Both the position numbers and the translations under genes were made by a program. A DNA stretch of 64,000 nt from an uncultured Gammaproteobacteria bacterium (GTDB taxonomy: Bacteria > Pseudomonadota > Gammaproteobacteria > CAMYKB01): positions 38,421-102,420 of the forward strand of contig CAMYKB010000004.1 in assembly GCA_947258875.1 (NCBI GenBank), in the 5' to 3' direction. The notes beneath the pieces are model-generated. The model searched no databases, was not told where the DNA came from, and saw only the letters and a program-made list of their open reading frames with translations. Positions 8,201 through 26,359 of the stretch are shown here, piece by piece. Every line of letters starts with the position of its first letter. The stretch's first letter is position 1.

Positions 8201-8456
8201 TCATCAACAGCTCCGTGAAGGTGTTGCATTTGAGGAAGCCGTGATTCGTTCCGGTGCGGTGCGTGCCAAGCCGATTGCCCTGACCGGTCTGGCGGCGATT
8301 CTGGGGGCCTTCTTTATTCTTGATGATCCGATCTTCAGCGGCCTGGCAGTATCGCTGGTGTTCGGTATCCTGGTGTCCACGATACTGACGCTGGTGGTGA
8401 TCCCGGTATTTTATTATGCGGTCATGTACCGCAGGCAAGGGCTTGCATCCAGCTAA
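5220..8456 (+). CDS. RND efflux permease (AcrB/HAE1-like)
   Basis: A 1078-residue inner-membrane proton-driven exporter. There is one N-terminal membrane helix (residues 15-40), a large periplasmic porter domain, a block of helices around 360-520, a second porter half, and a C-terminal helix block from about 910. The stretch S-I-G-I-L-V-D-D-A-I-V-V-V-E-N is the TM4 motif with the paired Asp residues used in proton relay. The length and the two internally repeated halves fit the family. It is co-expressed with the adaptor. Drug, metal or lipid substrates are all possible; the sequence gives no decisive clue. Confidence 0.93.
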   Translation: MSNSSLGISGRIARLFLDSEITLLLALLGLFMGVFAILVTPREEEPQINVTFANVFVSFPGASSQEVEQLVSTPAEQIISEIQGIKHVYSVSRPGLAVLTVQYEVGEDSTDAIVRLYNKIFSNQDWLPANLGVGQPIIKPKGIDDVPIVSLTLWSDDPQQGAYELSQVAHAIEAELKRVPGTRDIYTIGSPERVVHVLLDPQKLAGYGLVIADLRRALQVSNAASDAGVLVNDNREIEVRAGVFLSNSDEIGDLVVTVHQGKPVYLRDVAEIRSGADQPESYVWFGTGEAANHKGIEARGEFPAVTVAIAKKPGINAVRVANQVIERFAQLQNTFVPEGVQATITRNYGETADAKAKKLIQKLIFATSAVVLLVLFALGWREAIIVGVAVVITLAITLFASWAYGFTLNRVSLFALIFSIGILVDDAIVVVENIHRHIALGAKSLREAIPLAVDEVGGPTILATFTVIAALLPMAFVSGLMGPYMSPIPINASMGMLISLIVAFVITPWMSFRFLQHSAVTHANTDGETVKDNKLYQFFSRYIGPFLRAEQGRWRRWGLLISILVLIMLAISLAGFKLVVLKMLPFDDKSEFQVVVDMDEGTSLEHTARVLGDLSRYLQTVPEVTDYQVYTGTASPINFNGLVRQYYLRSGAHMGDIQVNLMDAHDRDLKSHEIASRLRVPLQEIAQRFNANVKIVEVPPGPPVMSPLVAEIYGLDYTGQIGAARAVRHVFAETAAIVDIDDSVEYPAQRFVIHVDRSKAALLGVSQLDVTRAITTILSGDDVGYLHGANVKRAVPVRLEYPVAGKAEMDSVLALKLRGAGGKLVPMSEIVQVEQSAREHAIYHKDLLPVVFVTADAAGELDSPLYGMFDIFGKLKTTAVSLGKPIEQYLISPPEDPYFYSLKWDGEWQVTYETFRDMGIAYSVGLLLIYFLVVAQFRSYLVPLVIMAPIPLTIIGVMPGHALLGVQFTATSMIGMIALAGIIVRNSILLVDFIHQQLREGVAFEEAVIRSGAVRAKPIALTGLAAILGAFFILDDPIFSGLAVSLVFGILVSTILTLVVIPVFYYAVMYRRQGLASS

Positions 8457-8539
8457 GTCGCTCGTGAGCGGCCATCCGCCCGTAGTGCTTCCCGCCTTCC
8501 CATGATTAATGATTACCCCTCTTTGTTACAGGTATATGA

Positions 8540-8568
8540 ATGTCATAAAGCAATCAAGGTGATATAAT
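8540..8568 (+). promoter_or_regulatory. Candidate sigma70 promoter of the LysR gene
   Basis: ATGTCA at 8540-8545 (4 of 6 matches to the -35 consensus) and a perfect TATAAT at 8563-8568 are 17 bases apart, about 40 bases upstream of the LysR start. The region is AT-rich. Confidence 0.4.
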
Positions 8569-8609
8569 TGTTTTATTATCTGGATTAGTTTACTTATAAG
8601 GCCCTATTA

Positions 8610-9515
8610 ATGGCTGATCGCCGGTTACAAGTTTTTTATACGGTTGCCCGTATGCTGAGTTTTACCAAGGCTGCCGAAACCTTGCATATGACGCAACCGG
8701 CAGTGACCTTCCAGGTGCGGCAGCTTGAGGATCATTTCAATACCCGCCTGTTTGATCGCACCCATAACCGCGTTACGCTGACCGAGGCAGGACGCAAGAC
8801 TTACGAGCATGCGGAAAAGATTTTTGAACTGTATACCGAAATGGAAAATTCGGTTAAGGAGCTGACCGGCGATGTCAGCGGCACCCTCACATTAGGTGCC
8901 AGTACCACCATCGCGGAATATATGCTACCGGCGCTGCTGCGGCGCTTCACTGATAAATACTCGGATGTCAATTTAAGGCTCAAGGTATCTAACAGTGAAG
9001 GCATCGTTTCGATGGTCGAGAATAATATGATCGACCTGGGCGTAGTGGAGGTCCCGGTCACCAATAAAAACCTTATGGTCGAAGTGTGCCGTATCGATCA
9101 ACTGGTCGTCGTGGTGCCACCGGATCACCCGCTAGGCGAGAGAGAGTCGGTTAAGATGGATGAACTGATTCCCTATCCCTTTATCTGTCGCGAAGAGGGT
9201 TCGGGTACCCGTGAGGTCATTGTTGAAAACATGACCCAATTGGGACTCGATAAGAACAGTTTGAACATATGTCTTGAGCTGGGAAGTCCCGAGTCCATCA
9301 AGGGTGCAGTCGAGGCAGGTATGGGCATATCCATCCTCTCACGTGCCACCCTCACCAAGGAACTGGCGCTGAAAAGTCTGAAGGCTGTGAGTCTCGATCC
9401 GCCACTGGAACGGGCATTCTCGTTCGTACGGCAACGACAGAAGTTCCGCTTACATGCGATTGAGGAATTACTCGATTTTGCCCATTCCTACTGCGAACAG
9501 AACCCGGTTACCTGA
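8610..9515 (+). CDS. LysR-family transcriptional regulator
   Basis: A 301-residue regulator. Residues 1-62 form the winged helix-turn-helix with the typical F-T-K-A-A-E-T-L-H-M-T-Q-P-A-V-T helix pair. Residues about 90-295 form the two-lobed effector domain, starting G-T-L-T-L-G-A-S-T-T-I-A. The N-terminus and G-A-S-T-T-I-A-E-Y pocket resemble the CysL/selenium-metabolism branch of LysR proteins, but the effector is not determined. It lies in the same direction as the next two genes with short gaps. It could regulate the upstream efflux pair, its downstream neighbours, or distant targets. Confidence 0.9.
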   Translation: MADRRLQVFYTVARMLSFTKAAETLHMTQPAVTFQVRQLEDHFNTRLFDRTHNRVTLTEAGRKTYEHAEKIFELYTEMENSVKELTGDVSGTLTLGASTTIAEYMLPALLRRFTDKYSDVNLRLKVSNSEGIVSMVENNMIDLGVVEVPVTNKNLMVEVCRIDQLVVVVPPDHPLGERESVKMDELIPYPFICREEGSGTREVIVENMTQLGLDKNSLNICLELGSPESIKGAVEAGMGISILSRATLTKELALKSLKAVSLDPPLERAFSFVRQRQKFRLHAIEELLDFAHSYCEQNPVT

Positions 9516-9564
9516 TTGAGGCTTGATGACGTATCGCAGGTTTGCGTAATCCTTGAGAAAATCC

Positions 9565-9954
9565 ATGAGCACTACGCCTGGTCAGATAAAATTTGATACC
9601 CGTAAAAAGCGTTTGCAGAAGCTGTACAACCAGATGGGTAGTGAAGCTCAGCATATGCTGCTGGAGTTTGCCGAATTTTTGGCGCAACGATACGAGCCGG
9701 ATATCCAGGAGATCGGCAAACCTGAAATCATCCCAAGACCTGAATCTGAAACTGTGGTCAAGGCAATACAGCGCTTATCAGCCAGCTATTCGATGCTGGA
9801 CAAGAGTCTCATCCTCAACGAGACCTCGGAATTAATGACTCAGCATATAATGCAGGGGCGGGATGCTGTCGAAGTGATTGATGAACTCGAAAAACTGTTT
9901 GTGGACCACTACCAGAAATTGATCGCCCAGAATCTCGATAATAATAATGATTAG
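9565..9954 (+). CDS. Hypothetical 129-residue helical protein
   Basis: A soluble, charged, probably all-helical protein of unknown family. The M-L-L-E-F-A-E-F-L-A-Q-R-Y segment near residue 32 resembles helices in small prokaryotic antitoxin-like proteins, but no partner toxin is seen. ATG at 9565 is preferred over a TTG at 9553. The stop overlaps the start of the following transporter gene by 8 bases, so the two are likely translated together. Its role may therefore be linked to the transporter. I do not recognise a function. Confidence 0.7.
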   Translation: MSTTPGQIKFDTRKKRLQKLYNQMGSEAQHMLLEFAEFLAQRYEPDIQEIGKPEIIPRPESETVVKAIQRLSASYSMLDKSLILNETSELMTQHIMQGRDAVEVIDELEKLFVDHYQKLIAQNLDNNND

Positions 9955-11020
9955 TTATCTGCGCGAGTGGTATGAGCGACATTTCTCTGATCCGCAGGTT
10001 GTCATCCTCGCTATCCTGTTAATACTGGGTTTTACGGTAGTCTTGCTGGCGGGCGATATCCTGGCTCCGTTGTTGGCAGCAATCATCATCGCTTACCTGC
10101 TTGATGGAGGCATCGCAATTCTGCAGCGTTGCAAGATACCGCGGTCTGTCGCCCTGATGCTCGTCTATACGGGTTTTATTACTTTCCTGTTACTGATTCT
10201 GTTTGGCGTGGTGCCTTTGTTATCGCAGCAGCTGACACAATTTTTTCGAGAATTGCCCAGCATGATCGCCCAGGGTCAGCAGTTATTGATGCAGTTACCG
10301 GAGAAATACCCCGAGTTCATCACGGAAGCGCAGATGGGAGAAGTGATCGGCGCCTTGCGTGCCGATTTGACTGGCTTTGGTCAAAAGGTGGTGAGCTGGT
10401 CGTTGTCATCAGTCATGGGGCTCATCACGATTCTAGTGTATTTGATCCTGGTGCCGTTGTTGATTTTTTTCTTTTTGAAAGACAAGCAACGTATCCTCTA
10501 CTGGGTAGAGGGTTTCCTGCCGGCCGAAAGGTCTCTTACTAATGAAGTCTGGTTTGAGGTAAATAACAAGATTGCCAGTTATGTGCGTGGGAAATTCACC
10601 GAGATACTGCTGGTATGGTCGGTGAGCTATATCACCTTTACGATTCTGGGTTTGAATTTCGCAGTATTATTATCCTTTCTGGTGGGTATCTCGGTTATCG
10701 TTCCGTATGTCGGTGCCGCTGTGGTCACGATCCCGATTGCCTTCATTGCGTATTTTCAATGGGGCTTCAGTTCGCAATTTGCCTATGTGCTATTGGCTTA
10801 CGCTGTGATCCAATTTCTGGATGGCAACGTGCTCGTCACCTTCTTATTTTCTGAAGTGGTGAATCTCCACCCCGTCGCAATTATTTCTGCGGTGTTGGTG
10901 TTTGGCGGTTTGTGGGGTGTATGGGGGGTGTTCTTTGCGATTCCACTGGCAACCCTGGTAGAGGCCGTGATCAATGCCTGGCCGTCACGGCGCAAACAGG
11001 AAGCCAGTGAGCTTGCATGA
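9947..11020 (+). CDS. AI-2E/PerM-family membrane transporter
   Basis: A 357-residue inner-membrane protein with about seven or eight hydrophobic helices: two near residues 15-55, one near 62-90, a soluble loop of about 55 residues, then a cluster from 150 to 340. The loop followed by V-Y-L-I-L-V-P-L-L-I-F-F-F-L-K-D-K and the later P-Y-V-G-A-A-V-V-T-I-P motif are typical of the PerM/YdiK/AI-2E family. Members have been linked to export of autoinducer-2 or to ion exchange; the substrate here is unknown. It overlaps the preceding small gene by 8 bases and is convergent with phoH. Confidence 0.9.
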   Translation: MISYLREWYERHFSDPQVVILAILLILGFTVVLLAGDILAPLLAAIIIAYLLDGGIAILQRCKIPRSVALMLVYTGFITFLLLILFGVVPLLSQQLTQFFRELPSMIAQGQQLLMQLPEKYPEFITEAQMGEVIGALRADLTGFGQKVVSWSLSSVMGLITILVYLILVPLLIFFFLKDKQRILYWVEGFLPAERSLTNEVWFEVNNKIASYVRGKFTEILLVWSVSYITFTILGLNFAVLLSFLVGISVIVPYVGAAVVTIPIAFIAYFQWGFSSQFAYVLLAYAVIQFLDGNVLVTFLFSEVVNLHPVAIISAVLVFGGLWGVWGVFFAIPLATLVEAVINAWPSRRKQEASELA

Positions 11021-11028
11021 CCTCATTT

Positions 11029-12435
11029 CTAGAGCTGAACAGAGGCAAAATCAGCTAGCCGCGAACGCTCGCCACGTAACAGGGTGATATGTCCACTGTG
11101 GTCCCATTGTTTGAAACGATCGACCACGAAGGTCAGTCCGGAGGTGGTTTCTGTCAGATAGGGTGTGTCGATCTGGGCTATATTCCCCAGGCATACGATT
11201 TTGGTGCCGGGGCCGGCACGTGTGATGAGGGTCTTCATTTGTTTAGCGGTCAGGTTCTGGGCCTCATCGATGATGAGGTAGCGGTTCATGAAGGTGCGGC
11301 CACGCATGAAATTCAGCGAACGGATCTTGATACGGCTGCGCAGCAGGTCGTTGGTAGCCGCGCGGCCCCAGTCGCCGCCACTGGCCGACGGGCTGAGCAC
11401 TTCAAGATTATCCATTAATGCACCCATCCAGGGTTCCATTTTTTCCTCTTCGGTACCTGGTAGAAAGCCGATATCTTCGCCTACCGGAACAGTCACGCGC
11501 GTCATGATGATTTCCTTGTAACGCTGTTCCTCGATGGCCTGTGTGAGTCCGGCAGCCAGGGTCAGTAAAGTTTTGCCAGTACCGGCTTGCCCTACCAGGC
11601 TGACAAAGTCGATTTCGGGATCCATAAGCAGGTTGAGCGCGAAATTTTGCTCGCGATTGAGTGCATTGATACCCCATACGGTTTGCCGTGGTTGCCTATA
11701 GTCATGCAGGTATTCGATCACAGCCTGTTCATGCTCGAGTTTACGTACGATGGCGTTGAATGCCTGGTCGCCTTCAATGTACAGGCATTGGTTCGGATAC
11801 CACTCCTTGATCAGTGGGCCGTTGAGACGATAAAAGGTGCGTCCTTCTTCCTGCCATGAGTCCATATCCTTGCTGTGCGAGTTCCAGAAATCTGCCGGCA
11901 AGGCAGTGGCGCCATTGAATAACAGGTCGACATCATCGAGCACCTTATCATTGGTGTAATCCTCTGCATGAATGCCGATGATAGCGGCCTTGATGCGCAG
12001 GTTGATGTCCTTGGATACCAGTGTGACGCGGATATCGGTCAATTCTTTTTCAAGTGCCAGCGCCGTGCCGAGAATGGTGTTATCGGCAGTGCCGCCAGGC
12101 AGGGAGTCCGGTAGTACCGAGGGCATGATACGTGTCTGGAAAAACAGGTGTCCACCCGGTGCGTTGTTGGCACCGCTCAATTCCCTGGAAATGAGCGGTA
12201 CACCCTGTTCAATCTCCTCATGGCTGATGCCGGACATGAGGCCGTCCATAAAGCGGCTGACCTGACGGACGTTACGAGCGACTTCAGACATACCCTTTTT
12301 GGCACGGTCAAGTTCCTCCAGCACAACCATGGGTAGGAAGATGTCATGTTCCTTGAAGCGGAACAGTGACGCCGGGTCGTGCATAAGGACATTGGTATCC
12401 AGTACGAACAAGCGTTTGCCGGGCTCAATAGTCAT
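11029..12435 (-). CDS. PhoH-family ATPase with PIN domain
   Basis: A 468-residue two-domain protein. Residues about 6-150 form a PIN nuclease domain with the conserved acidic start F-V-L-D-T-N-V-L-M-H-D. Residues about 245-460 form the PhoH P-loop ATPase, with Walker A G-Q-A-G-T-G-K-T and Walker B Y-L-I-I-D-E-A-Q-N. This fusion (PhoH2-like) is associated with RNA unwinding and cleavage. ATG at 12435 is chosen because the family starts at about this point; the frame extends 25 codons upstream without family-like sequence. The gene follows bcp on the same strand with a 37-base gap. Confidence 0.9.
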   Translation of the reverse strand: MTIEPGKRLFVLDTNVLMHDPASLFRFKEHDIFLPMVVLEELDRAKKGMSEVARNVRQVSRFMDGLMSGISHEEIEQGVPLISRELSGANNAPGGHLFFQTRIMPSVLPDSLPGGTADNTILGTALALEKELTDIRVTLVSKDINLRIKAAIIGIHAEDYTNDKVLDDVDLLFNGATALPADFWNSHSKDMDSWQEEGRTFYRLNGPLIKEWYPNQCLYIEGDQAFNAIVRKLEHEQAVIEYLHDYRQPRQTVWGINALNREQNFALNLLMDPEIDFVSLVGQAGTGKTLLTLAAGLTQAIEEQRYKEIIMTRVTVPVGEDIGFLPGTEEEKMEPWMGALMDNLEVLSPSASGGDWGRAATNDLLRSRIKIRSLNFMRGRTFMNRYLIIDEAQNLTAKQMKTLITRAGPGTKIVCLGNIAQIDTPYLTETTSGLTFVVDRFKQWDHSGHITLLRGERSRLADFASVQL

Positions 12436-12472
12436 TGAATATCTCTTGTCTGGGTTTATGGATGGTGGTGGA

Positions 12473-12940
12473 TTACAGGGATTTTGTGGCAGCCAGGACC
12501 GCGTCCACATGACCTGCGACCTTTACCTTGCGCCATTCTTGCCTCAGTACTCCTTTTTCGTCGATCAAAAAAGTGCTGCGTTCGATGCCTAATAGCTGTT
12601 TACCGTACATGTTTTTAGGCTTGATCACATCGAACAGCTGGCAGAGTTTTTCATCTGCATCGGACAATAGTTCAAAAGTGAAGCCTTGTTTGGCCTTGAA
12701 ATTTTCATGTGACTTTATGCCGTCACGCGAGACACCGAGAATTACGGTGTTGGCGCGTTTGAATTTGCTGTGGTTGCTATTGAAATCAAGTCCTTCGGTT
12801 GTGCAGCCGGGGGTGTTGTTCTTGGGATAGAAGTAAAGTACGATTTTTTTGCCTTTAGAGTCCGATAGCTTAACGGTCTGGTCGCCGGTTGCGGCTACTT
12901 CAAAGTCAGGGACGGGTTTCCCGAGGCTTACTGTGCTCAC
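12473..12940 (-). CDS. bcp: Thioredoxin-dependent peroxiredoxin (Bcp/PrxQ)
   Basis: A 155-residue cytoplasmic peroxiredoxin that reduces hydrogen peroxide and organic hydroperoxides. The active-site motif is T-P-G-C-T-T-E-G with peroxidatic Cys46. The usual second Cys five residues later is absent (replaced in the T-E-G-L-D stretch). The only other Cys lies near residue 107, so it would act as a 1-Cys or atypical 2-Cys enzyme. Start is ATG at 12940. It is divergent from dapA, a gene order seen in many gammaproteobacteria. Confidence 0.93.
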   Translation of the reverse strand: MSTVSLGKPVPDFEVAATGDQTVKLSDSKGKKIVLYFYPKNNTPGCTTEGLDFNSNHSKFKRANTVILGVSRDGIKSHENFKAKQGFTFELLSDADEKLCQLFDVIKPKNMYGKQLLGIERSTFLIDEKGVLRQEWRKVKVAGHVDAVLAATKSL

Positions 12941-13101
12941 TCGAATACTCCTGTGGATAACGCGTAATATTGATCAGCTGCGGTGATGGATAGCCTGGCA
13001 TTGCCGGGTGCCCCGCTGCGTAGCATCAAATCTGTGGACAGGGTATCAATTTACTGGATAGAGGCCTAGGAGAATACCCTTGGCACTAATGCGACATATG
13101 C

Positions 13102-13130
13102 TTGTCAACTTGGATAAGCCTCAGTAGTAT
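13102..13130 (+). promoter_or_regulatory. Candidate sigma70 promoter of dapA-bamC
   Basis: TTGTCA (13102-13107) and TAGTAT (13125-13130) are separated by 17 bases and lie 27 bases upstream of the dapA start. They match consensus at 5 of 6 and 4 of 6 positions. A CGGAG ribosome site precedes the ATG at 13157. Confidence 0.5.
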
Positions 13131-13156
13131 GACGCCTTAATTTTCCGGAGATATAT

Positions 13157-14047
13157 ATGTTCCACGGTAGTATGGTGGCGATGGTGACGCCAATGCAAGA
13201 TGATGGCGCCGTCGACACTCAGGCCCTGGCAGCGCTGGTCGAGTTCCATATAGAAAACGGTACCGATGCCATCGTGGCGGTGGGCACTACCGGCGAATCA
13301 GCGACGCTTGATAACGAGGAACACTGTGGTGTCATCCGCCAGGTGGTGGATAGGGTAGCAGGCCGTATTCCGGTGATTGCCGGTAGTGGCGCCAACTCCA
13401 CCCATGAAGCGATTGACCTGACACGCTGTGCTATGGATGCCGGCGCTGATGCCTGTCTGCTGGTCACACCGTACTACAACAAACCACCTCAGGAAGGGCT
13501 CTACCAGCACCATAAGGCAATCGCTGATGCGGTTGCGATTCCCCAGATTCTTTATAATGTGCCTGGGCGCACTGCCTGCGATATGCTGCCTGATACGGTG
13601 GAACGGCTTTCCCGAATCCCTAATATCATTGCCATTAAGGAGGCGACGGCTGACCTGGAGCGCGCCAGGGAAATTGTACAGCGCTGTGGTGATAATCTGG
13701 ACGTTTACGCCGGCGATGATGCCACCGCCATGGAGTTGATGTTGCTTGGCGGTAAGGGCGTGATCTCGGTGACGGCCAATGTCGCGCCCCGTGCTATGCA
13801 TGAGCTCTGTGAGGTCTGCCTGTTGGGTGACCGTGCCCGTGCAGAGGAGATCAATGCTAGCATCGAAGGCCTGCATCGTGACCTGTTTCTGGAATCCAAT
13901 CCTATTCCGGCTAAATGGGCCTTGCATGAAATGGGCTTGATCTCCACCGGCATACGCCTGCCACTGGTGCCACTTGCCGAGCAATATCGCGAACCGTTGA
14001 GGCGCACTTTGCGTGCCGCCGGCATTGAACTTGGCCGCTCTGATTAA
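13157..14047 (+). CDS. dapA: 4-hydroxy-tetrahydrodipicolinate synthase
   Basis: DapA, 296 residues, condenses pyruvate with aspartate semialdehyde in the lysine and diaminopimelate pathway. It is a TIM-barrel class I aldolase. The Schiff-base lysine is Lys161 in I-I-A-I-K-E-A-T. Tyr133 (I-L-Y-N-V-P-G-R-T) and the paired Thr44-Thr45 (V-G-T-T-G-E) complete the catalytic set at the E. coli numbering. Length matches the family. It precedes bamC by 51 bases, as in E. coli where the two form one operon. Confidence 0.97.
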   Translation: MFHGSMVAMVTPMQDDGAVDTQALAALVEFHIENGTDAIVAVGTTGESATLDNEEHCGVIRQVVDRVAGRIPVIAGSGANSTHEAIDLTRCAMDAGADACLLVTPYYNKPPQEGLYQHHKAIADAVAIPQILYNVPGRTACDMLPDTVERLSRIPNIIAIKEATADLERAREIVQRCGDNLDVYAGDDATAMELMLLGGKGVISVTANVAPRAMHELCEVCLLGDRARAEEINASIEGLHRDLFLESNPIPAKWALHEMGLISTGIRLPLVPLAEQYREPLRRTLRAAGIELGRSD

Positions 14048-17539: not shown

Positions 17540-19388
17540 CTAGGATATTACGCGACGCCCAGGTGATTCGCAATCCCGGCCCGCCAAGCATGATTGTACA
17601 GAATTCAGGATGCCATTGGCATCCAGGCCGGCCTCTTGTAGCAATTCCTCGCGGCTACCATGTTCCTGGTAGCGATCTGGAAGGCCAAGATTGAGGGTCT
17701 TGGTCTGAATATCCTGCGCGGCCAGGTACTCGTTAACAGCGCTGCCGGCGCCGCCATTGATGGCATTATCCTCAATAGTGCAGTGGCTTGATAAAGCGCA
17801 TGTTGACGACGCTGGCATCCAGTGTGTCGGCTGCCGCGAGGGCTGCTTGCAAGGGGCTGCCAAACACTAGTAGTGCGACGTCGCTGCCGTGTCTGACGAT
17901 ATCTGCCTTACCTAAAGGCATGGCCTGCATGGACTTGTTAATAGTTGTGCCGGGGCCGCAACCGCGGGGATAACGTACCGCAGCTGGGCCATCATGGAGA
18001 TGGCCGGTGTAAAGCATCTGGCGGCATTCGTTTTCGTCGGTAGGTGCCATGATCAGCATATTGGGTATGCAACGCATGAAGCTGAGATCAAAACTCCCAG
18101 CATGGGTGGGGCCATCAGGGCCGACAATTCCGGCGCGGTCGATGGCGAACAGCACAGGCAGGTTTTGCAGCGCGACATCGTGGATAAGCTGATCGTATGC
18201 ACGTTGCAAAAAGGTGGAATAGATCGCCACTACCGGTCTGGCGCCTTCCCTGGCCATGCCCGCGGCAAGTGTTACTGCATGTTGCTCGGCAATACCCACG
18301 TCGAAATAGCGATCCGGATATTCCTGTGAATAGCGAACCAGCCCCGAACCTTCGCGCATGGCGGGCGTGATAGCCATCAGGCGTGGGTCCTCGGCGGCCA
18401 TATCGCAGATCCAGTCACCGAATACCTGGCTATAAGTCGGTGACGATTGCTCTGTGCTTTTGCTCATGCCCGTTTCCGGGTTAAATTTGGAAACCGCATG
18501 ATAGGTGACCGGATCATCTTCCGCGGGTTCGTAACCCTTGCCTTTGCGAGTGATGATGTGCAAGAGCCGGGGGCCTTTGTGGTTGCGCAGGTTGGCCAGG
18601 GTCTTTAGCAGTGCGTTGATATCGTGACCATCGACCGGACCAAAATAATTGACACCCATCTCCTCGAACAGGGTACCCGGTGCAACCATACCCTTGACAT
18701 GTTCTTCAGTGCGTTTTGCCAGTTCCCATACAGGCGGCATTTGTTTGAGTAATTTTTTGCCGCCCTCGCGCATGCTTGAGTAGACTTTGCCTGATAGCAT
18801 GCGCGTCAAATAATTATTGAGGGCACCGACATTCGGTGAGATCGACATTTCGTTATCGTTGAGGATGATCAGCAGATCGGCATACACATCACCCACATGA
18901 TTTAATGCCTCGAATGCCATGCCTGCGGTCATCGCGCCGTCACCGATGATGGCTACCACCTTGCGTTCCTCATGCGCGCGGGCGGCAGCCAGCGCCATCC
19001 CCAAGGCGGCGCTGATAGAGGTGCTGGAATGGCCGACACCGAAGGTGTCGTATTCACTTTCGTCACATTTCGGGAAGGGCGCCAGACCGTCCTTTTGGCG
19101 GATACTGGTTATAGCGTCGCGGCGTCCGGTAAGGATCTTGTGGGGATAACACTGGTGTCCCACATCCCAGACCAGGCGGTCATCAGGCGTATTAAACACA
19201 TAATGCAAGGCCACTGTCAGCTCAATAGTGCCCAGCCCGGCAGCGAAGTGCCCGCCACTTTTTGCCACGGAGTGCAACAGGTATTCGCGTAATTCACGAG
19301 CGAGTTCGCCAAGTGATGATTGTGGCAATTTACGCAGCTCGTGCGGATCTGTAATACCGTAAAGGAGTGGGTAATCTGGTGTCTTCAT
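17540..19388 (-). pseudogene. dxs: 1-deoxy-D-xylulose-5-phosphate synthase, frameshifted
   Basis: Dxs condenses pyruvate and glyceraldehyde 3-phosphate, the first step of MEP isoprenoid synthesis. Residues 1-535 are normal, with the thiamine-diphosphate motif G-D-G-A-M-T-A-G-M and the [11 protein letters not shown] motif. After M-R-F-I-K-P-L the frame runs into TGA at 17774-17772. The expected continuation ([15 protein letters not shown]) is found from 17779 in another frame and runs to a stop at 17540. About 16 residues that normally join the two parts are missing. This fits an out-of-frame deletion of about 47 bp at 17780. Two readings remain open: a true loss of function, or a sequence or assembly error. 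The C-terminal part is otherwise well conserved. Confidence 0.9.
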
Positions 19389-19702
19389 ACGTAGGAAAAT
19401 TCCGACAATTCCGTATTATCTTTTCCATGCTGAAGACATGCAAGTTGTATTTTCACTAAAGTTATTGTTATCAGTGTCTTAAAAAATTTTTCTTCATCTC
19501 AAAAACTTTACACCGTTAATCGTGGCATGCTCGCAGCTCATCGGCAACTTCTTGTCTTTTAGCCGTATTTTTCATTTAGTAACGCCAGGACGGAAACTTG
19601 ATCGGCCAGCTGACCGAAACAGGCAAGAGTTAATAATTTCCTGTTTCTTGAAATTTCTGGCGCTACGGGTATCTGAGGAAAAGTTACTTTTGAGGGATGA
19701 TT
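19389..19702. promoter_or_regulatory. Divergent control region between dxs and the fibre operon
   Basis: These 314 bases separate the leftward dxs start from the rightward first subunit gene and contain no gene. They hold AT-rich runs (19470-19510). A near-perfect 16-bp palindrome T-C-G-G-C-C-A-G-C-T-G-A-C-C-G-A lies at 19602-19617. A perfect 8-bp inverted repeat GAAACAGG/CCTGTTTC with a 16-base loop lies at 19616-19647. TGAGGG at 19691-19696 is the ribosome site for ATG at 19703. I could not pick a convincing -35/-10 pair. The region must supply promoters for both directions. Confidence 0.5.
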
Positions 19703-20314
19703 ATGAATACTAAATTGACTAAATTTGCAGTCGCAACTGCACTTGCAACATGTGTTTCTTTACCCCAGTATGCGGCGGCTGAGGCCACATCTGTCGCTGG
19801 TGCGACGCCGTTATCAGCTGCAGCCCGGGTTAAGTTCCAGGTTAACGTTGCAGGTGTGTTACGGTTTCGGGTGGGCAGTACTGCTACAACGATTGACCAG
19901 ATTGTATTCAACGTCAATGATACCGATGTCGGTAGTGGTGCCGCAGTTGCTGCAACCAGCGGTGGCGATGTTGCGCCAGGTGTTGTTACAGCAGAACTTT
20001 TCAGTAACGTCGGTGCAGTAACGATTACCGAAACCAATGATAGTGCAGGTGCGGGTCTCAAGAATGCTGCGGGTGATGTGATCCCTTATTCCGAGATTAC
20101 AGCGACCAGTAGCAATAACGCCTTCGTTCCGCCAGCACTTTCTGATGCAGGTGGTGCTGCAGTTTCTCCAGCGACCACAACGGGAACCAAGATCACTAAT
20201 TATGCTGAGCAGTGGACCTATCAGTTCACGAACAGTGCGATTTATCCTGCCGGTGTCTATGGTGATGGTGCCGGTGGCTTTGGCCAGGTGACCTATACCG
20301 CTGCCATTCCCTGA
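19703..20314 (+). CDS. Secreted fibre subunit 1 (putative major pilin-like subunit)
   Basis: A 203-residue protein with a clear signal peptide (cut near A-A-A after residue 26). The mature part is rich in Ala, Gly, Thr and Val with no Cys, as expected for a beta-rich surface subunit. Residues 55-79 (R-F-R-V-G...I-V-F-N-V...D-V-G-S-G), 126-133 (V-I-P-Y-S-E-I-T) and the terminal strand G-Q-V-T-Y-T-x-x-I-P align with the product of the next gene. ATG at 19703 is chosen because TGAGGG lies 6 bases before it. A strong terminator follows, suggesting this is the most abundant product. I do not recognise a named family. Confidence 0.75.
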   Translation: MNTKLTKFAVATALATCVSLPQYAAAEATSVAGATPLSAAARVKFQVNVAGVLRFRVGSTATTIDQIVFNVNDTDVGSGAAVAATSGGDVAPGVVTAELFSNVGAVTITETNDSAGAGLKNAAGDVIPYSEITATSSNNAFVPPALSDAGGAAVSPATTTGTKITNYAEQWTYQFTNSAIYPAGVYGDGAGGFGQVTYTAAIP

Positions 20315-20331
20315 ATATCAGCTTGTTAATC

Positions 20332-20365
20332 AAGGCCCCGCCTTTGTGGTGGGGCCTTTGTTTTC
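20332..20365 (+). terminator. Rho-independent terminator after fibre subunit 1
   Basis: Stem AAGGCCCCGCC (20332-20342) pairs with GGTGGGGCCTT (20348-20358) around a 5-base loop, with one G-U pair, followed by TTTGTTTT. It lies 17 bases after the subunit 1 stop and inside the operon, so partial read-through would give less of the downstream products. Confidence 0.85.
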
Positions 20366-20490
20366 CGAGGTGGCGTTATCGAACCTCTTTCCGTTTACCC
20401 TCTATATCATTTGCTAGAAGCCGCAGTCACTGCCATTATATCGATCTGAACATGCAGCAATGGTCATGTACGGAATAGCGAGGTTGGTGT

Positions 20491-20994
20491 GTGAATCGAC
20501 TTAATCTGTTTGCTGGTTTACTGGTTAGCGGCTTGACGCCGACGCTGAATGCGCAGGTCATTAATTTGAAGAACAGCGCTGTGCCGGAGATATCGATCCG
20601 AGTTGGTGGGGGTGGTAAGGCCATTAGTACCGTCGTGTTCGATATTCCTGCGACCAATGTCGCGGATGGCACGCCAATTCCCGGGGGTAAGAAGATACGC
20701 ATCGATGTGCAGGCGCGCGCAACCCCTTCAAACTCGCGGTTGGTCAGTTTACAGGCAGATTCTTCCCAACCGTTGACAAATGGCAGTATCGTGCTGCCGT
20801 TTACAGAATTTTACTGGACGGCGAAAAAAGGCGATATTCCTTCTGGTGTTTTCAATGGTGGTACCCAGGTACTTTTGGAATTTTTTAATTCGCGCCGCAT
20901 ATTCGATATGCATGATTATGTATATGCCAATACCCTGCCTGTGGCTGTTGGTACCTATAACGGCCAGGTGGTCTATACACTGACCATGCCATGA
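20491..20994 (+). CDS. Secreted fibre subunit 2 (paralogue of subunit 1)
   Basis: A 167-residue protein starting with GTG at 20491. A signal peptide ends near L-N-A (residue 21). The mature part is beta-rich and lacks Cys. It shares with subunit 1 the R-V-G...V-V-F-D-I...V-A-D-G block (37-60), the V-L-P-F-T-E-F block (101-107), and the final strand G-Q-V-V-Y-T-L-T-M-P. The common terminal strand ending in Pro suggests a conserved edge strand used for chaperone binding or strand exchange. Its stop overlaps the next start (ATGA). It is probably a minor or adaptor subunit because it lies after the terminator. Confidence 0.7.
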   Translation: MNRLNLFAGLLVSGLTPTLNAQVINLKNSAVPEISIRVGGGGKAISTVVFDIPATNVADGTPIPGGKKIRIDVQARATPSNSRLVSLQADSSQPLTNGSIVLPFTEFYWTAKKGDIPSGVFNGGTQVLLEFFNSRRIFDMHDYVYANTLPVAVGTYNGQVVYTLTMP

Positions 20995-21482
20995 AAAAAG
21001 GGATTACCCATTTTCTATGTGTGCTGCTGCCATGCCTGTTATGTAATAGCGTGCTTGCCGAACGTCTCGATGACAGACTGTCTCCGCAGCAGGAGCTCAA
21101 TTTCCAGCTCAATTGGCAGGCTCGTAATCGTTTTGATTTGTCGGATGAACAGCTGAACGCGCTGGTCGCACAATCAAATCCGATAGAAACCAGACTCGAT
21201 ACATCGGCCTATGTTGGTCAAAATGCCAGAATATTCCTGCAACTCCCGGTAGACATACAGGGGTTGAAGTCGTTGCAGGGGCTGCGTATGAGTTGGACCA
21301 CGCGGGGACGTTTTGCTGATGGCAGTGTCACTCCGGGTGGCCGTAGCCTGTTGTTTGAAGGAACAATAACTGAGGCGGTGATGACCGATTTTTTCAGTTA
21401 TCGTTTTGAGCTTGATTCGCGGTCTATGTTGCACGATTTACGATTTGAGCCTGTCTATGACATTGAGATACAGAAACCATGA
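20991..21482 (+). CDS. Secreted fibre-operon protein 3, unknown
   Basis: A 163-residue protein with a signal peptide ending V-L-A (about residue 23). Residues 24-70 are Gln/Asn/Leu-rich and probably helical. Residues 75-163 look beta-rich, with R-M-S-W-T-T-R-G-R-F-A-D-G and a terminal E-P-V-Y-D-I-E-I. It overlaps both neighbours by 4 bases (ATGA), so it is translationally coupled between subunit 2 and the chaperone. It has no Cys in the mature part. It might be a tip or anchor subunit, but this rests on position only. Confidence 0.65.
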   Translation: MKKGITHFLCVLLPCLLCNSVLAERLDDRLSPQQELNFQLNWQARNRFDLSDEQLNALVAQSNPIETRLDTSAYVGQNARIFLQLPVDIQGLKSLQGLRMSWTTRGRFADGSVTPGGRSLLFEGTITEAVMTDFFSYRFELDSRSMLHDLRFEPVYDIEIQKP

Positions 21483-22294
21483 AAATGAAACAAGTCTTCA
21501 TGCAAAATACAATCGTGATCGGGTTACTCTATCTATTGTTGCAGAGCGCCGCGTCGGCCAGCGGTTTCATGGCTACGGTGTCTCCACCGCGTTTTGAGAT
21601 ACAGGCAAAAACCGGCAAGGTGGTACGCGAAATCGTGGAAATTGGTAACCCGGGCAACGAGGTAGGTGAATTCAGGGTGCGTACATCTGAGTGGGCAATG
21701 GATGAAAAGGGAGTGCTGGCCTTTGATACCGGGGGGCTGATGCAAAACAGTTGTCGCCCATGGGTTAAAATTGAACGTCGTACAGTCAAAGTGCGCCCGC
21801 GCGGCAGCAAACGTTACCGTTTTGAAATACACGTGCCGGAGCTTGTGGAGCAGGGTGAGTGTCGTTTTGCGCTGATGATCGAGCCTACCGATACCGGGAG
21901 TGTCATCGCCAAAGCAGGGGAGGTGCAGTTCCCGGTACAGGGCAGGATTGCGGTTATTGTTTACCTGTCTATCGATGGCGCGCAGCCCCGGCTTGAGTTT
22001 CAGAATATCAAAATGTCTCGTCTGAATGGTTTTGTGAGACCGATGGTGAGTTTCAAGAACACAGGCAATGCGCATGGCCGTCCACAGGGTGTGCTAGAAG
22101 GCCGCGATGCCAGCGGAGAGCGTTTTGATATCAATGTGTCGCCAGTACCAATACTGCCCGGGCAGACACGTCAAATTGATTTATGGCCGGTTGATCTGAA
22201 TGGTAAGACGCGCAGCTTTGAACCGCCCTTGCAACTCAAGGGGCGTATCGAATGGCTGGGTGGACACTACGACATCAACACGCGAGTAGAGTGA
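21479..22294 (+). CDS. PapD-like periplasmic pilus chaperone
   Basis: A 271-residue exported protein with a signal peptide ending A-S-A-S (about residue 28). The mature N-terminus (M-A-T-V-S-P-P-R-F-E-I followed by a V-x-x-I-x-N-P strand) and the W-V-K-I...R-x-S-K-R-Y-R-F-x-I strand pair match the first immunoglobulin-like domain of fimbrial chaperones. A second domain follows from about residue 160. Two Cys (N-S-C-R-P-W and G-E-C-R-F) could form a disulfide. It would hold the subunits folded in the periplasm. It is convergent with the usher-like gene, with 4 bases between stops. Confidence 0.75.
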   Translation: MKMKQVFMQNTIVIGLLYLLLQSAASASGFMATVSPPRFEIQAKTGKVVREIVEIGNPGNEVGEFRVRTSEWAMDEKGVLAFDTGGLMQNSCRPWVKIERRTVKVRPRGSKRYRFEIHVPELVEQGECRFALMIEPTDTGSVIAKAGEVQFPVQGRIAVIVYLSIDGAQPRLEFQNIKMSRLNGFVRPMVSFKNTGNAHGRPQGVLEGRDASGERFDINVSPVPILPGQTRQIDLWPVDLNGKTRSFEPPLQLKGRIEWLGGHYDINTRVE

Positions 22295-22298
22295 GCGA

Positions 22299-25103
22299 TC
22301 ACTCACCAATCCGTGTCAGCGGAATAACTACTTCGTTCTTGCCACGCGGTTGTAACTCAAGGGTTATGAGGGGTTCGTCTTGCATGCCCCAGGGCAGAGG
22401 TATATCTTCCAGCGCAACTCCCAACTGATGTCTGCCTGACGGTACAGGCCAGAATTCAAAGCCACCGTCACGATCCGTTATCTGGCTGTAACGGCCATCG
22501 AGAAATACTGTGATGTTATTGGCGATCTTTTCATTCGCCTGACGTATACCATCATTGTTTTCGTCAAAAAATACGACTCCTGTCACCTTGCCGTAACCGC
22601 CTGCTTCGCTATCACGACCATAATAATTGGGTGATTTGCCACGCGCTACACTGTAATTGATGCGTAACAGAATATCGCTTTCATTTTCCCCAAGTGGCAG
22701 GCCGGCGCCTTGTTGGGGTTCAGGTTCGTTGCGGTTGATTTCGAGCGAGGCTTGCCAGTTGGGCGTAAACGTCCAGAAAGCCGCCACGCGGATATTGGCG
22801 ATATTCTGTGAAGGTGAAAATTTATTATCGACTTGTCCATAACTGAGGCTGCCATTCACAGAAAATTGCGGGGTAATTTCGCTGCGGAATAATACACTGC
22901 TATTTATTGCGTTACGGGTATCTTCAGAAGTGTCTTCGCTTTCATACGTCAAGGCCATGCCCACTTGATGGTATCGCGAGATATTCCAGTCCTGTGTCAG
23001 ATCGAGTCGAGTCAGGCTGCTATCCGCCTGCTCCTGGTCAGTATCGATAGCGGTGATTTGTGCACGGCTGGTGCCCAGGTTAAACCGGTGGGTGGCAAAA
23101 GCTGTAGCACGTAAGCTGGTGCTATCACCCTGTGATTCCGGTTTAGTGAGTCGATAACCAAGCGTACCACCTATACTGGTGCGGGTGTCTTTGCGATATG
23201 TCGTGGATAAGAACATCGACGTGACATCATTGCCTTCGCGTGCAGGGTTATTGTCAATATCGGTTTTGAACCAGTCGATGCCTGCAGAAATGCTCTGGCG
23301 GCGTAGTTTCATATCGTTGCGGTAGTAAATTCCACGTTGATCGTTTGAGATGATTGCATCGCTCCACAGTAATTCGGGATCGAGTTGGTATACGCCATAG
23401 AAGTGTGTCATGCGGTAATGTTTCATCAGGCCATCGACCCATAAACCCATACTGCCTTCACTGTCGATGAGTGTATGTAATTGGTAGCGCTGTGAACTAT
23501 CCAGGCTTGTATACTGGGCCACACCCGCCAGGCTGTCATGGTCGGGCACGGTTTCATGATCCTGTAAGGAAACCCATTGCCCCCCTAATAACCATTGTGA
23601 ATCGAGAGCCTCGGTATAACTCGCGTTGAATAACAGGCCATCAGTATTATTGAATTCGCGGGCTATCGTGCCGTTGAGGTTGCCGGTGCGGCCGATGGTA
23701 AAGCGAATGTCCCGGTTGCTGTCGTGCAGGCTGCTGGCGATACCGCTGACAAGAGACGAGGGCAGTTGTATGCGGTAACTGTTGGCAATGCCCGCAGGTG
23801 TGTTGCTGCGCAGCAAGCCGATAGCGTTATCCATCGACCAGCCATTACCTAAAGCAAAATCGCGCTGCTTGAGTGTGAATATGCCACTGCTGCCGGTCGC
23901 CGTGCCATCGATGGAAGAGTCGATGGTGTTGGCGGCAATATTCACTTCGAATTCGCCGTAATTCAGTGTTTCGCGCAAGCCACGCAGGTTCAGCACATTT
24001 TCGCTGGTACGACCACTGCGAGTACGGTCTGAACTGAAATGGACGTATTCTGCATTATAAAAGCGTCTACCGCTCTGTGCGGCATCTTCCGTTTCCAGAT
24101 CATCGAATTCCGGCTCCTCCGCGAGAGCGGGATCGATGAGTTGATCGACGTAGCCTGTGGTAACAGCGGCTGCGGTTGTCGGTTCGCTTATAGTATCGGG
24201 CTGTACTTCGGGGAGAGGTTGTGTCGCGGTGGTGTCCTGCGCTATGGGTTGTGTGGCGGTTGTATCCGTCTCTGCTGCCGGCTCAAATGATCGGGAGATC
24301 TGTGCGGGGGGTTCGGTTGCCGGTATGTCTGGTGCTGCGCCGACCTGTATACGCGCAGGCAGTTGTACCAATGCATACTCATTGATTTTTCCTGGGTCGC
24401 GCCCGCCAAACCGGGTTTTATTAAGTTCAAGAATTTCATAATAGAGTTTGAGTTGACGTTTGGCGTTACCGGGTTCCATAAGAACAGCGATCTTGAACAG
24501 GGTCTCACCCGGCCATAGGGACCAGTAGCCACGATAGCGGGCAAGCTCAACCCGTTTTTCGATGGATAGCTGTGTATTAGTTTCATCGGTTGTTTTGATT
24601 TTTACGCGCTCTGGAATAGTAACTACTGCAGCTCCTGGGCCGGGCTCTATTGCGGCTTCGGTGGGCGGTGTTTGCGTGGTTTCGCTATCAGCCACGTTTA
24701 TAGAGGCCTTCTCGGTTTCAGCTATAGTAGCGGGCTCGCCCGCCATCAGCAGATAAGTGGGAATTCTGATGAAGCGATATACCCCGAGTCTTTCAGGTGC
24801 GAGCTCGCCCTGCTCATTGCTGTTGAGTTCGATAAGATCAGTATAAACACGGTTCTTGAAATCAGTGTCATCGGGAGCCAGTAGCCAGGCGACCTCCTCG
24901 AGATCTTCACCTGGCGCCAGTGGCAGCAGGCCGCTTGTCAGAGCAAGCTCGACACGTTCATCCAGTGGTAAATCTTTACCGAAATCGTGCGGTGCGGCAA
25001 ATGCCGCAGTGGCTAGCTGTGAGGTAATGCTGCAAACCAGCAGCAATGTAATGAGGCGATTTTGGTAGAGCACCTGTATGCCATGCAGGCATGATTTAAG
25101 CAT
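22299..25103 (-). CDS. Usher-like outer-membrane protein with FimV-like repeats and SdrD-B-like tail
   Basis: A 934-residue exported protein; the signal peptide ends near A-F-A-A (residue 37). Residues 47-121 and 181-255 are two copies of a module with P-G-E-x-L-x-x-x-A-x-L-x-x-P and a later L-x-L-N, like the LysM-type repeat of FimV. A Thr/Pro/Glu-rich linker follows (256-345). Residues about 346-835 are alternating polar-aromatic strands typical of a beta-barrel. Residues 838-934 form an SdrD-B or carboxypeptidase-regulatory-like domain with F-D-E-N-N-D-G-I-R-Q and D-R-D-G-G-F-E-F, a pattern also seen in usher C-terminal domains. Context makes it the probable secretion pore of the fibre. 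It is not a recognisable FimD/PapC usher. Confidence 0.7.
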   Translation of the reverse strand: MLKSCLHGIQVLYQNRLITLLLVCSITSQLATAAFAAPHDFGKDLPLDERVELALTSGLLPLAPGEDLEEVAWLLAPDDTDFKNRVYTDLIELNSNEQGELAPERLGVYRFIRIPTYLLMAGEPATIAETEKASINVADSETTQTPPTEAAIEPGPGAAVVTIPERVKIKTTDETNTQLSIEKRVELARYRGYWSLWPGETLFKIAVLMEPGNAKRQLKLYYEILELNKTRFGGRDPGKINEYALVQLPARIQVGAAPDIPATEPPAQISRSFEPAAETDTTATQPIAQDTTATQPLPEVQPDTISEPTTAAAVTTGYVDQLIDPALAEEPEFDDLETEDAAQSGRRFYNAEYVHFSSDRTRSGRTSENVLNLRGLRETLNYGEFEVNIAANTIDSSIDGTATGSSGIFTLKQRDFALGNGWSMDNAIGLLRSNTPAGIANSYRIQLPSSLVSGIASSLHDSNRDIRFTIGRTGNLNGTIAREFNNTDGLLFNASYTEALDSQWLLGGQWVSLQDHETVPDHDSLAGVAQYTSLDSSQRYQLHTLIDSEGSMGLWVDGLMKHYRMTHFYGVYQLDPELLWSDAIISNDQRGIYYRNDMKLRRQSISAGIDWFKTDIDNNPAREGNDVTSMFLSTTYRKDTRTSIGGTLGYRLTKPESQGDSTSLRATAFATHRFNLGTSRAQITAIDTDQEQADSSLTRLDLTQDWNISRYHQVGMALTYESEDTSEDTRNAINSSVLFRSEITPQFSVNGSLSYGQVDNKFSPSQNIANIRVAAFWTFTPNWQASLEINRNEPEPQQGAGLPLGENESDILLRINYSVARGKSPNYYGRDSEAGGYGKVTGVVFFDENNDGIRQANEKIANNITVFLDGRYSQITDRDGGFEFWPVPSGRHQLGVALEDIPLPWGMQDEPLITLELQPRGKNEVVIPLTRIGE

Positions 25104-25224: not shown

Positions 25225-26112
25225 TTAACAGCTGCGCATCACGATGTACTCGGCTATGGCGCGCAGAGTGTCTGCACTTTTCCCTAGCGGCTCGATACTT
25301 TGCAGCGCTTCTTTCAACAGGCCTTGCGCCATCGACTTGGCCTCGTTCATCCCAACCAGCGAGGGGTAGGTTGGTTTGTCGCGCGCAATATCCGCGCCTT
25401 GTTGCTTGCCTAGGGTTTTGGTATCACCTTCCACATCGAGTATGTCGTCATGAATCTGGAATGCGAGGCCGATGCAGCGCGCAAAGTGATCCAGTTTGTC
25501 CAGTACATTGCGATCAATACCGCTGTTGCTACCGGCAGCCATGATGATGCTGGCGCGGATGAGGGCGCCGGTCTTGTGTACATGCATGTCTTCCAGTTCG
25601 GCAATATTGAGTTTGCGTCCCACCGAAGCAAGATCGATCGCCTGACCGCCAGCCATGCCCCGCGAACCGGCGGCCAGTGCCAGGGTATCGATGATATGCA
25701 GACGGGCCTGCGGGTTATCCGTCATACCGGGATCATGGGCGAGGATGTGGAATGCGAGCGCCTGCATGGCATCGCCAGCCAGGATGGCAGTCGCTTCGTC
25801 GAAGGCCATATGGCAGGTCGGTTTGCCACGCCGCAAGTCGTCATCATCCATTGCTGGTAAGTCGTCGTGTACCAGTGAATAGGCATGAATCAATTCAACG
25901 GCACAAGCAGGGCCATCGAGTTGTAGCAACGGTATACTCAGCGCTACTCCTGTTGCATACATGAGTGCCGGGCGGATACGCTTGCCGCCGTTGAGCACCG
26001 AATACCGCATCGCGGTGTGTAACTGAGTGGGATGGGATTCAGCTGCTGGTAGCCAGCGTTGCAAAGCCTTTTCGACACGTGTGCTGTAGGTTTTAAGTTC
26101 AGTTTCAATCAT
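25225..26112 (-). CDS. ispA: Farnesyl/geranyl diphosphate synthase
   Basis: A 295-residue short-chain polyprenyl diphosphate synthase that joins isopentenyl and dimethylallyl diphosphates into farnesyl diphosphate. The first aspartate-rich motif is D-D-L-P-A-M-D-D-D-D-L-R-R-G-K and the second is I-H-D-D-I-L-D-V-E-G-D. The substrate motif G-G-K-R-I-R-P is near residue 45. ATG at 26112 gives the usual length and an ATGATTGA overlap with the xseB stop. The xseB-ispA-dxs arrangement is widespread, but here dxs is 5.8 kb away across the fibre island. Confidence 0.95.
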   Translation of the reverse strand: MIETELKTYSTRVEKALQRWLPAAESHPTQLHTAMRYSVLNGGKRIRPALMYATGVALSIPLLQLDGPACAVELIHAYSLVHDDLPAMDDDDLRRGKPTCHMAFDEATAILAGDAMQALAFHILAHDPGMTDNPQARLHIIDTLALAAGSRGMAGGQAIDLASVGRKLNIAELEDMHVHKTGALIRASIIMAAGSNSGIDRNVLDKLDHFARCIGLAFQIHDDILDVEGDTKTLGKQQGADIARDKPTYPSLVGMNEAKSMAQGLLKEALQSIEPLGKSADTLRAIAEYIVMRSC

Positions 26113-26359
26113 GTGTGACTGAATCATAATCATCATCCATGTCCTGCAGGGATTCCTTGGCGTTTTTTGTGCTCAGTATTTTAACCTTTTGCTCAGCGTC
26201 CTTGAGGGCCTGTTGGCAAGTACGTGTGAGCGCAATGCCGCGCTCAAATTGCTGCAGTGCTGCTTCCAGGGGTAGATCGCCCTGTTCGAGCTTTTCCACC
26301 AGGGTTTCCAGTTCATGCAGGGATTTCTCAAAATCGATGTTGGCTTTTTTGCGTGGCAC
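26105..26359 (-). CDS. xseB: Exodeoxyribonuclease VII small subunit
   Basis: XseB, 84 residues, a helical-hairpin subunit that binds XseA to form the single-strand DNA exonuclease VII. The sequence F-E-K-S-L-H-E-L-E-T-L-V-E-K-L-E-Q-G-D-L-P-L-E is diagnostic. A short acidic tail (D-M-D-D-D-Y-D) follows. It is the first gene of the leftward xseB-ispA operon. XseA is not in the window. Confidence 0.95.
   Translation of the reverse strand: MPRKKANIDFEKSLHELETLVEKLEQGDLPLEAALQQFERGIALTRTCQQALKDAEQKVKILSTKNAKESLQDMDDDYDSVTHD

Follow-up and report, generated by a model that had tools for sequence, protein, structure and literature searches.

A conserved five-gene locus of an uncultured gammaproteobacterium as a probable, deeply divergent relative of chaperone–usher systems with a plugless pore

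Archaic (Csu) and alternative (CFA/I, Ecp) chaperone–usher systems combine a two-domain PapD-fold chaperone with genetically linked genes for several homologous subunits, which have a hydrophobic N-terminal strand and a tyrosine-containing C-terminal strand, and for a large outer-membrane barrel, the usher, with a C-terminal beta domain. In the Gram-positive WxL/WxLIP (DUF916–DUF3324) clusters, WxLIP is predicted to complete the beta sandwich of its WxL partner with a strand (PMC10599100), as the chaperones of the usher pathway do. The locus described here (the island) lies between dxs and ispA in a stretch of 64 000 nucleotides (the window; positions 38 421–102 420 of contig CAMYKB010000004.1, assembly GCA_947258875.1) from an uncultured gammaproteobacterium and, as judged from sequence and predicted structure, shares all of these chaperone–usher features. 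It differs in giving no signal for the PF00577 (usher) or PF00345 (chaperone) families, in a barrel modelled with 26 strands, without plug or usher N-terminal domain and preceded by FimV/LysM-like repeats, and in a chaperone that has a cysteine pair of its own and no invariant proline. The chaperone family matches WxLIP by both sequence profile and fold; from the WxL clusters the island differs by its outer-membrane barrel, by a chaperone without a transmembrane anchor and by having no recognised WxL domain. The island probably encodes a complete and so far undescribed system that is a deeply divergent relative of chaperone–usher systems and has a plugless pore; no report on plugless ushers, on DUF916 with PapD or on usher-independent systems was found in the open-access literature.

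A PapD-like chaperone had been named among the products in an earlier note on this DNA. Profile comparison and the predicted fold support this for P0004, which is itself invisible to Pfam (PF00345 PapD_N included) and gave no phmmer match in the PDB. Its family aligned with usher-linked chaperones over both domains (hhalign, 99.1%, E 4e-19) and with distant chaperone-like proteins of other clusters at 100% in profile comparison; controls with unrelated alignments gave 6% and 0.1%. The AlphaFold2 model is a two-domain beta protein (predicted local distance difference test, pLDDT, 85.7), with WxLIP (9i1y, 9i25) at the top of its best solved Foldseek matches, which also include the chaperones CsuC, CfaA, YadV, CupB2, FimC, Caf1M, PapD and EcpB. 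Among PDB sequences the family profile matched E. faecium WxLIP1 (EfmWxLIP1; E 8e-7), and weak matches to WxLIP_PGBD (DUF916, PF06030) were obtained for seven of the 14 family members (best E 4e-5), P0004 not being one of them. On the evidence of profiles and model, the chaperone is related to the usher-pathway chaperones and to the Gram-positive WxLIP proteins. By sequence, Arg38 (Arg or Lys in 13/14 family members) and Arg156 (Arg in 11/14) appear to occupy the classical carboxylate-anchor positions, and from our own reading of the alignment we take them to correspond to PapD Arg8 and Lys112. A candidate donor strand spans residues ~156–165 (RIAVIVYLSI).

The large protein, P0005, was modelled with AlphaFold2 from 15 sequences (pLDDT 73 overall and mostly >80 over residues 345–820; predicted template-modelling score, pTM, 0.54). 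Small helical domains at ~45–120 and ~180–250 are followed by a disordered linker, by 26 consecutive strands at 344–821 and by a C-terminal beta domain at 837–934, so that the model supports the barrel-like protein that had been proposed. The helical domains resemble FimV/LysM repeats; FimV_core was matched in two relatives (L074, E 3e-7; L073, E 0.009), both times below the curated cut-off, and not in P0005 itself. An SdrD_B-like C-terminal domain is found in 14 of the 15 barrel family members. Foldseek against the PDB returned FimD or PapC ushers as all of the top 14 matches (best 7e-14), the best non-usher match being an Mtr complex chain (4e-9), and P0005 gave no match to PF00577. The longest gap between strands amounts to 18 residues in P0005 and to 23 among the 15 aligned members, which leaves no room for a plug in the barrel. 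In some relatives only ~80–120 residues, signal included, precede the barrel, so few that there is no space for an usher N-terminal domain.

Descent from ushers was assessed through a bridging family of divergent proteins (L109, L114, L132/L113, L127, L128, L130 and L131), which are chaperone-linked where their neighbours were read. This family aligned with classical ushers over 518 columns of barrel, plug and C-terminal domain (hhalign, 98.3%, E 2e-14), and two of its members matched PF00577 below the threshold (E 7e-4 and 0.006). Between the P0005 family and the bridging family, the C-terminal domain and the last barrel strands aligned (96.9%, E 2e-10); the last strands are also covered by a single-sequence match (E 5e-5), and the P0005 C-terminal domain compared with that of classical ushers at 65–74%. 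The chaperones linked to L109 and L114 belong to the same broad family as P0004. Like L127, L128, L130 and L131, these two proteins have SdrD_B C-terminal domains, and all six have the C-terminal domain and the last barrel strands in common with P0005; they differ from it in keeping a plug-like domain, in having no FimV-like region and in a barrel that aligns with classical ushers. Judged by these alignments, descent from ushers is likely for the C-terminal part of P0005 and plausible for its barrel.

Several observations weigh against a relative of the chaperone–usher systems. No product rose above any cut-off in Pfam or NCBIfam, and P0005 has no PapC_N match for the usher N-terminal domain. 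Alignment and model indicate a barrel without a plug insertion, and the model, with a pTM of 0.54, gives it 26 strands where the usher barrel has 24. Template-modelling (TM) scores to ushers are low (0.2–0.5), so that the Foldseek matches show kinship of architecture rather than superposition. With its C-terminal domain removed, the barrel scored <5% against every usher set, and sequence homology of the barrel to ushers is therefore not claimed; SdrD_B/CarboxypepD-type domains are widespread and mobile and could have been acquired independently. On the chaperone side, the proline of strand D1 has been described as the one residue that never varies among usher-pathway chaperones (PMC4654587). 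P0004 has Arg100 at this position, and Arg or Lys is found there in 13/13 clade members, whereas Pro is present in six of seven usher-linked and ten of 11 divergent (intermediate) chaperones. The pair Cys92/Cys128 is common to the 13 clade members and, as a pair, absent from the other chaperones compared; together with the exchange of Pro for Arg/Lys it marks the P0004 group as a distinct clade.

The barrel result, which extends to the divergent as well as the classical ushers, the strand number, the missing plug and N-terminal domain and the commonness of SdrD_B-type domains would all suit an alternative in which a chaperone and subunits of chaperone–usher type work with an unrelated outer-membrane barrel that acquired an SdrD_B-like domain and serves as the pore. 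The earlier note had proposed such a replacement of the usher by a different protein. Its proposal holds in so far as a whole-genome search found neither a PF00577 usher nor a PF00345 chaperone (with E. coli as the positive control) and the barrel alone shows no detectable sequence homology to ushers; it holds less well with respect to the nearest folds, which are FimD and PapC, and to the C-terminal alignments. Neither of the findings that the note had named as refuting it applies, P0005 being by its model a barrel and not an ordinary usher and the genes co-occurring in other genomes. Ushers are the best solved folds by several orders of magnitude, the C-terminal domain follows directly on the barrel in the manner of usher CTD1, with which it aligns, and the last barrel strands align with the divergent usher-like family as well. 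Since the nearest folds and the alignment of the C-terminal domain and last strands favour an usher relative, we regard an unrelated replacement as unlikely and a degenerate, plugless relative of the usher as the likelier origin of P0005.

The five-gene set is real, is conserved across many families and is not a product of chance, because the same set recurs elsewhere. A scan of bacterial genomes, confirmed by tblastn, revealed an identically arranged set in a metagenome-assembled genome of Acidithiobacillales (L002), where the chaperone is 38%, the barrel ~31% and the third protein ~35% identical to the products in the window. Of 369 genomes of the class that were searched with profiles, the barrel query being that of L002, 13 gave a strong chaperone match and 15 a strong barrel match; both were present, at one locus, in 12 (hypergeometric P for the overlap ~5e-19). 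In G237, the one genome with a chaperone but no barrel match, the chaperone gene sits at the edge of a contig of 4.8 kb. Reading of the loci showed both genes together at 14 places besides the window, and over all 15 the orientation is convergent in nine and co-directional in six, so that the linkage of chaperone and barrel survives reorientation; G152 carries two copies. The divergences of the two proteins are correlated (Mantel r 0.90), as shared species ancestry would also make them. G240 shares the genomic location too: its island is flanked by ispA and dxs and, at a greater distance, by folE2 and a rubrerythrin-like gene, the same setting as in the window (names by sequence recognition). 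G038, G074 and G107 possess a separate ordinary usher besides the P0005-type locus. In G208 and G085 (L079/L080) the barrel gene near dxs is shortened and without the C-terminal domain, there is no chaperone match in the genome, and the system has apparently decayed.

Subunits 1 and 2 (P0001 and P0002) are homologous (hhalign, 99.6%, E 1e-24). P0003 shows weak collinear similarity to subunit 2 (19%); going by its sequence it is a possible third subunit or tip and at best a distant relative of subunit 2. P0001 contains the alternating-hydrophobic strand ARVKFQVNVAGVLRFRVG and a tyrosine-containing last strand, GQVTYTAAIP. The alternating hydrophobic residues form a pattern seen in the alignment of the N-terminal stretch of its family (A9), and a G-x-V-x-Y-T strand ends both this family and that of subunit 2 (A10). 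The subunit families had no credible match among Pfam and PDB profiles, and no WxL domain was matched in them with Pfam. A presumed likeness of the subunits to the CFA/I pilin (CfaB) was confirmed by no search and is not used here.

The WxLIP kinship of the chaperone bears on a second alternative, a static display of the WxL/WxLIP kind in which the PapD-fold protein remains attached to its partners and anchors them at the surface without any polymer being formed, and the barrel, with its peptidoglycan-binding repeats, acts as an anchor or display pore. By sequence profile in Pfam and the PDB, as well as by fold, WxLIP is the best match of the chaperone, its predicted completion of the WxL sandwich with a strand would fit such a role (PMC10599100), and the N-termini of barrel relatives match FimV_core, if below the cut-off. 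However, the P0004 sequence ends in a predicted strand without a C-terminal transmembrane helix and has no DUF3324 match, the subunits have no WxL-domain match, chaperone–usher chaperone folds score almost as high as WxLIP, and several homologous subunits with alternating-hydrophobic N-termini typify fibre systems; a static display is accordingly held to be quite improbable. An ordinary archaic or alternative operon that the profiles missed through divergence, for which the fold of the chaperone near CsuC and CfaA and the phylogenetically widespread occurrence of archaic systems (PMC4654587) could be cited, is scarcely tenable and is contradicted by the tests for plug and proline, the plug being absent in all 15 family members and the proline being kept by the intermediates, and it also sits badly with a genome without PF00577 and PF00345 and with three genomes that hold an ordinary usher as well.

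The probable chaperone–usher relative would resemble a chaperone–usher system in its working, yet it lacks several features that define the named families. Because PF00577, PF00345, the plug, the N-terminal domain and the invariant proline are all missing, the island is placed neither with the classical, archaic or alternative families nor with the WxL clusters and is instead regarded as a variant of donor-strand fibre assembly that is new and deeply divergent. The earlier note had likewise been unable to name a fimbrial clade, and no product reaches a curated fimbrial model.

The open reading frames of the five genes, with the three small exported products and the exported 934-residue protein of the earlier note, were confirmed as four genes on the plus strand and a fifth, convergent one on the minus strand (Table 1). 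All five products have signal-like N-terminal segments, as judged by eye. The stops of the chaperone gene (gene 4) and the large gene are 4 bp apart, in keeping with the convergence that had been claimed. The claimed coupling of the small genes by 4-base overlaps applies to genes 2–3 and 3–4 (ATGA at 20991–20994 and 21479–21482); gene 1 is uncoupled, with 176 bp and a strong hairpin before gene 2. Promoter and terminator scans gave numbers at chance level, and the hairpin alone was kept from them because relatives repeat it: the gap between the first two subunit genes has a fold z below -2.5 against shuffles in eight of ten homologous loci and is unremarkable in two, the stems being unrelated in sequence. 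A stem-loop that follows the gene of the major subunit is well known from fimbrial operons. The stem-loop after gene 1 suggests by analogy that subunit 1 is probably the major subunit, and the hairpin is a candidate attenuator or RNA stop favouring it. The flanking dxs gene (17540–19388, minus strand) is broken near its 3' end, where a 538-residue frame ends at 17772 and the usual C-terminus of DXS resumes in another frame with residues apparently missing in between; this is apparently an internal deletion or an assembly error, and dxs is intact at the same place in G240.

Table 1. Features of the island and its flanks (positions in the window)
Feature	Product	Position	Strand	Basis
dxs (one flank)		start-codon end at 19388	-	
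Subunit 1	P0001, 205 residues	19697..20314	+	Open reading frame; 15-member family A9
Hairpin, 11 bp, GC-rich, in the subunit 1–subunit 2 gap		20332..20358	+	Fold z -3.8
Subunit 2 (GTG start)	P0002, 167 residues	20491..20994	+	Open reading frame; 11-member family A10
Third small exported protein	P0003, 163 residues	20991..21482	+	Open reading frame; 9-member family A11
Chaperone	P0004, 271 residues	21479..22294	+	Open reading frame; profiles; predicted fold
Usher-like outer-membrane barrel protein	P0005, 934 residues	22299..25103	-	AlphaFold2; Foldseek
ispA (other flank)		25225-26136	-	

By analogy with the chaperone–usher pathway, we infer that the island forms a fibre. The subunits, to go by their signal-like N-termini, would reach the periplasm via Sec, where P0004 would lend the strand RIAVIVYLSI to the incomplete Ig-like fold of each subunit while Arg38 and Arg156 anchored its C-terminus, as the alignment suggests. 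WxLIP being predicted to act in the same way, strand complementation by this fold is now proposed on the Gram-negative and the Gram-positive sides. Complexes of chaperone and subunit would then dock on P0005 as both pore and platform, and polymerisation would be driven by donor-strand exchange, for which each incoming subunit would supply its hydrophobic N-terminal strand. With neither a plug nor a classical N-terminal domain, gating and recruitment would have to fall to other parts, probably the usher-CTD-like C-terminal domain and the N-terminal LysM/FimV-like region, which in this genome may also attach the pore to peptidoglycan. Subunit 1 may owe its excess to the hairpin that follows its gene.

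Related gene clusters were also seen. Chaperone-like and subunit-like genes occur with one or two very large exported proteins (~1050 and ~1340 residues) in L003, L004, L005, L007, L008 and L011 (bacterial metagenome-assembled genomes, one of them Eremiobacterota); in most, a flagellin-like gene adjoins on the opposite strand of this unnamed surface system. L010 (Omnitrophota, 4646–10853) encodes small exported proteins, a chaperone-like protein and a large SdrD_B protein, and L012 (a Deinococcus psychrotolerans plasmid, 7865–13611) has the same kinds of genes; part of the barrel and the C-terminal domain of its large protein are matched by the barrel profile of the window (E 5e-13). A divergent, chaperone-linked large protein (L104, 3227–6763, minus strand) carries an SdrD_B and then a SPOR domain, both over their cut-offs, which would make it a second example of a putative fibre pore joined to a peptidoglycan-binding module. 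A tentative and rather doubtful extension would make the island a further branch of donor-strand assembly, with a permanently plugless pore and a chaperone between the usher-pathway and WxLIP proteins; chaperone–usher pili and WxL display would then share one ancestor, and the Eremiobacterota, Omnitrophota and Deinococcus clusters would be more branches.

Such systems are probably annotated as hypothetical proteins, because no product reaches a curated family model. If the island is a plugless relative of the chaperone–usher systems, the plug and a dedicated N-terminal docking domain would be dispensable, although both are central to textbook usher gating and recruitment, and the island would offer a simpler platform for testing how subunits are recruited and how leakage is prevented. 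Through its chaperone the Gram-negative pathway is linked with the WxL clusters of Gram-positive bacteria, and a shared origin of the two would become testable.

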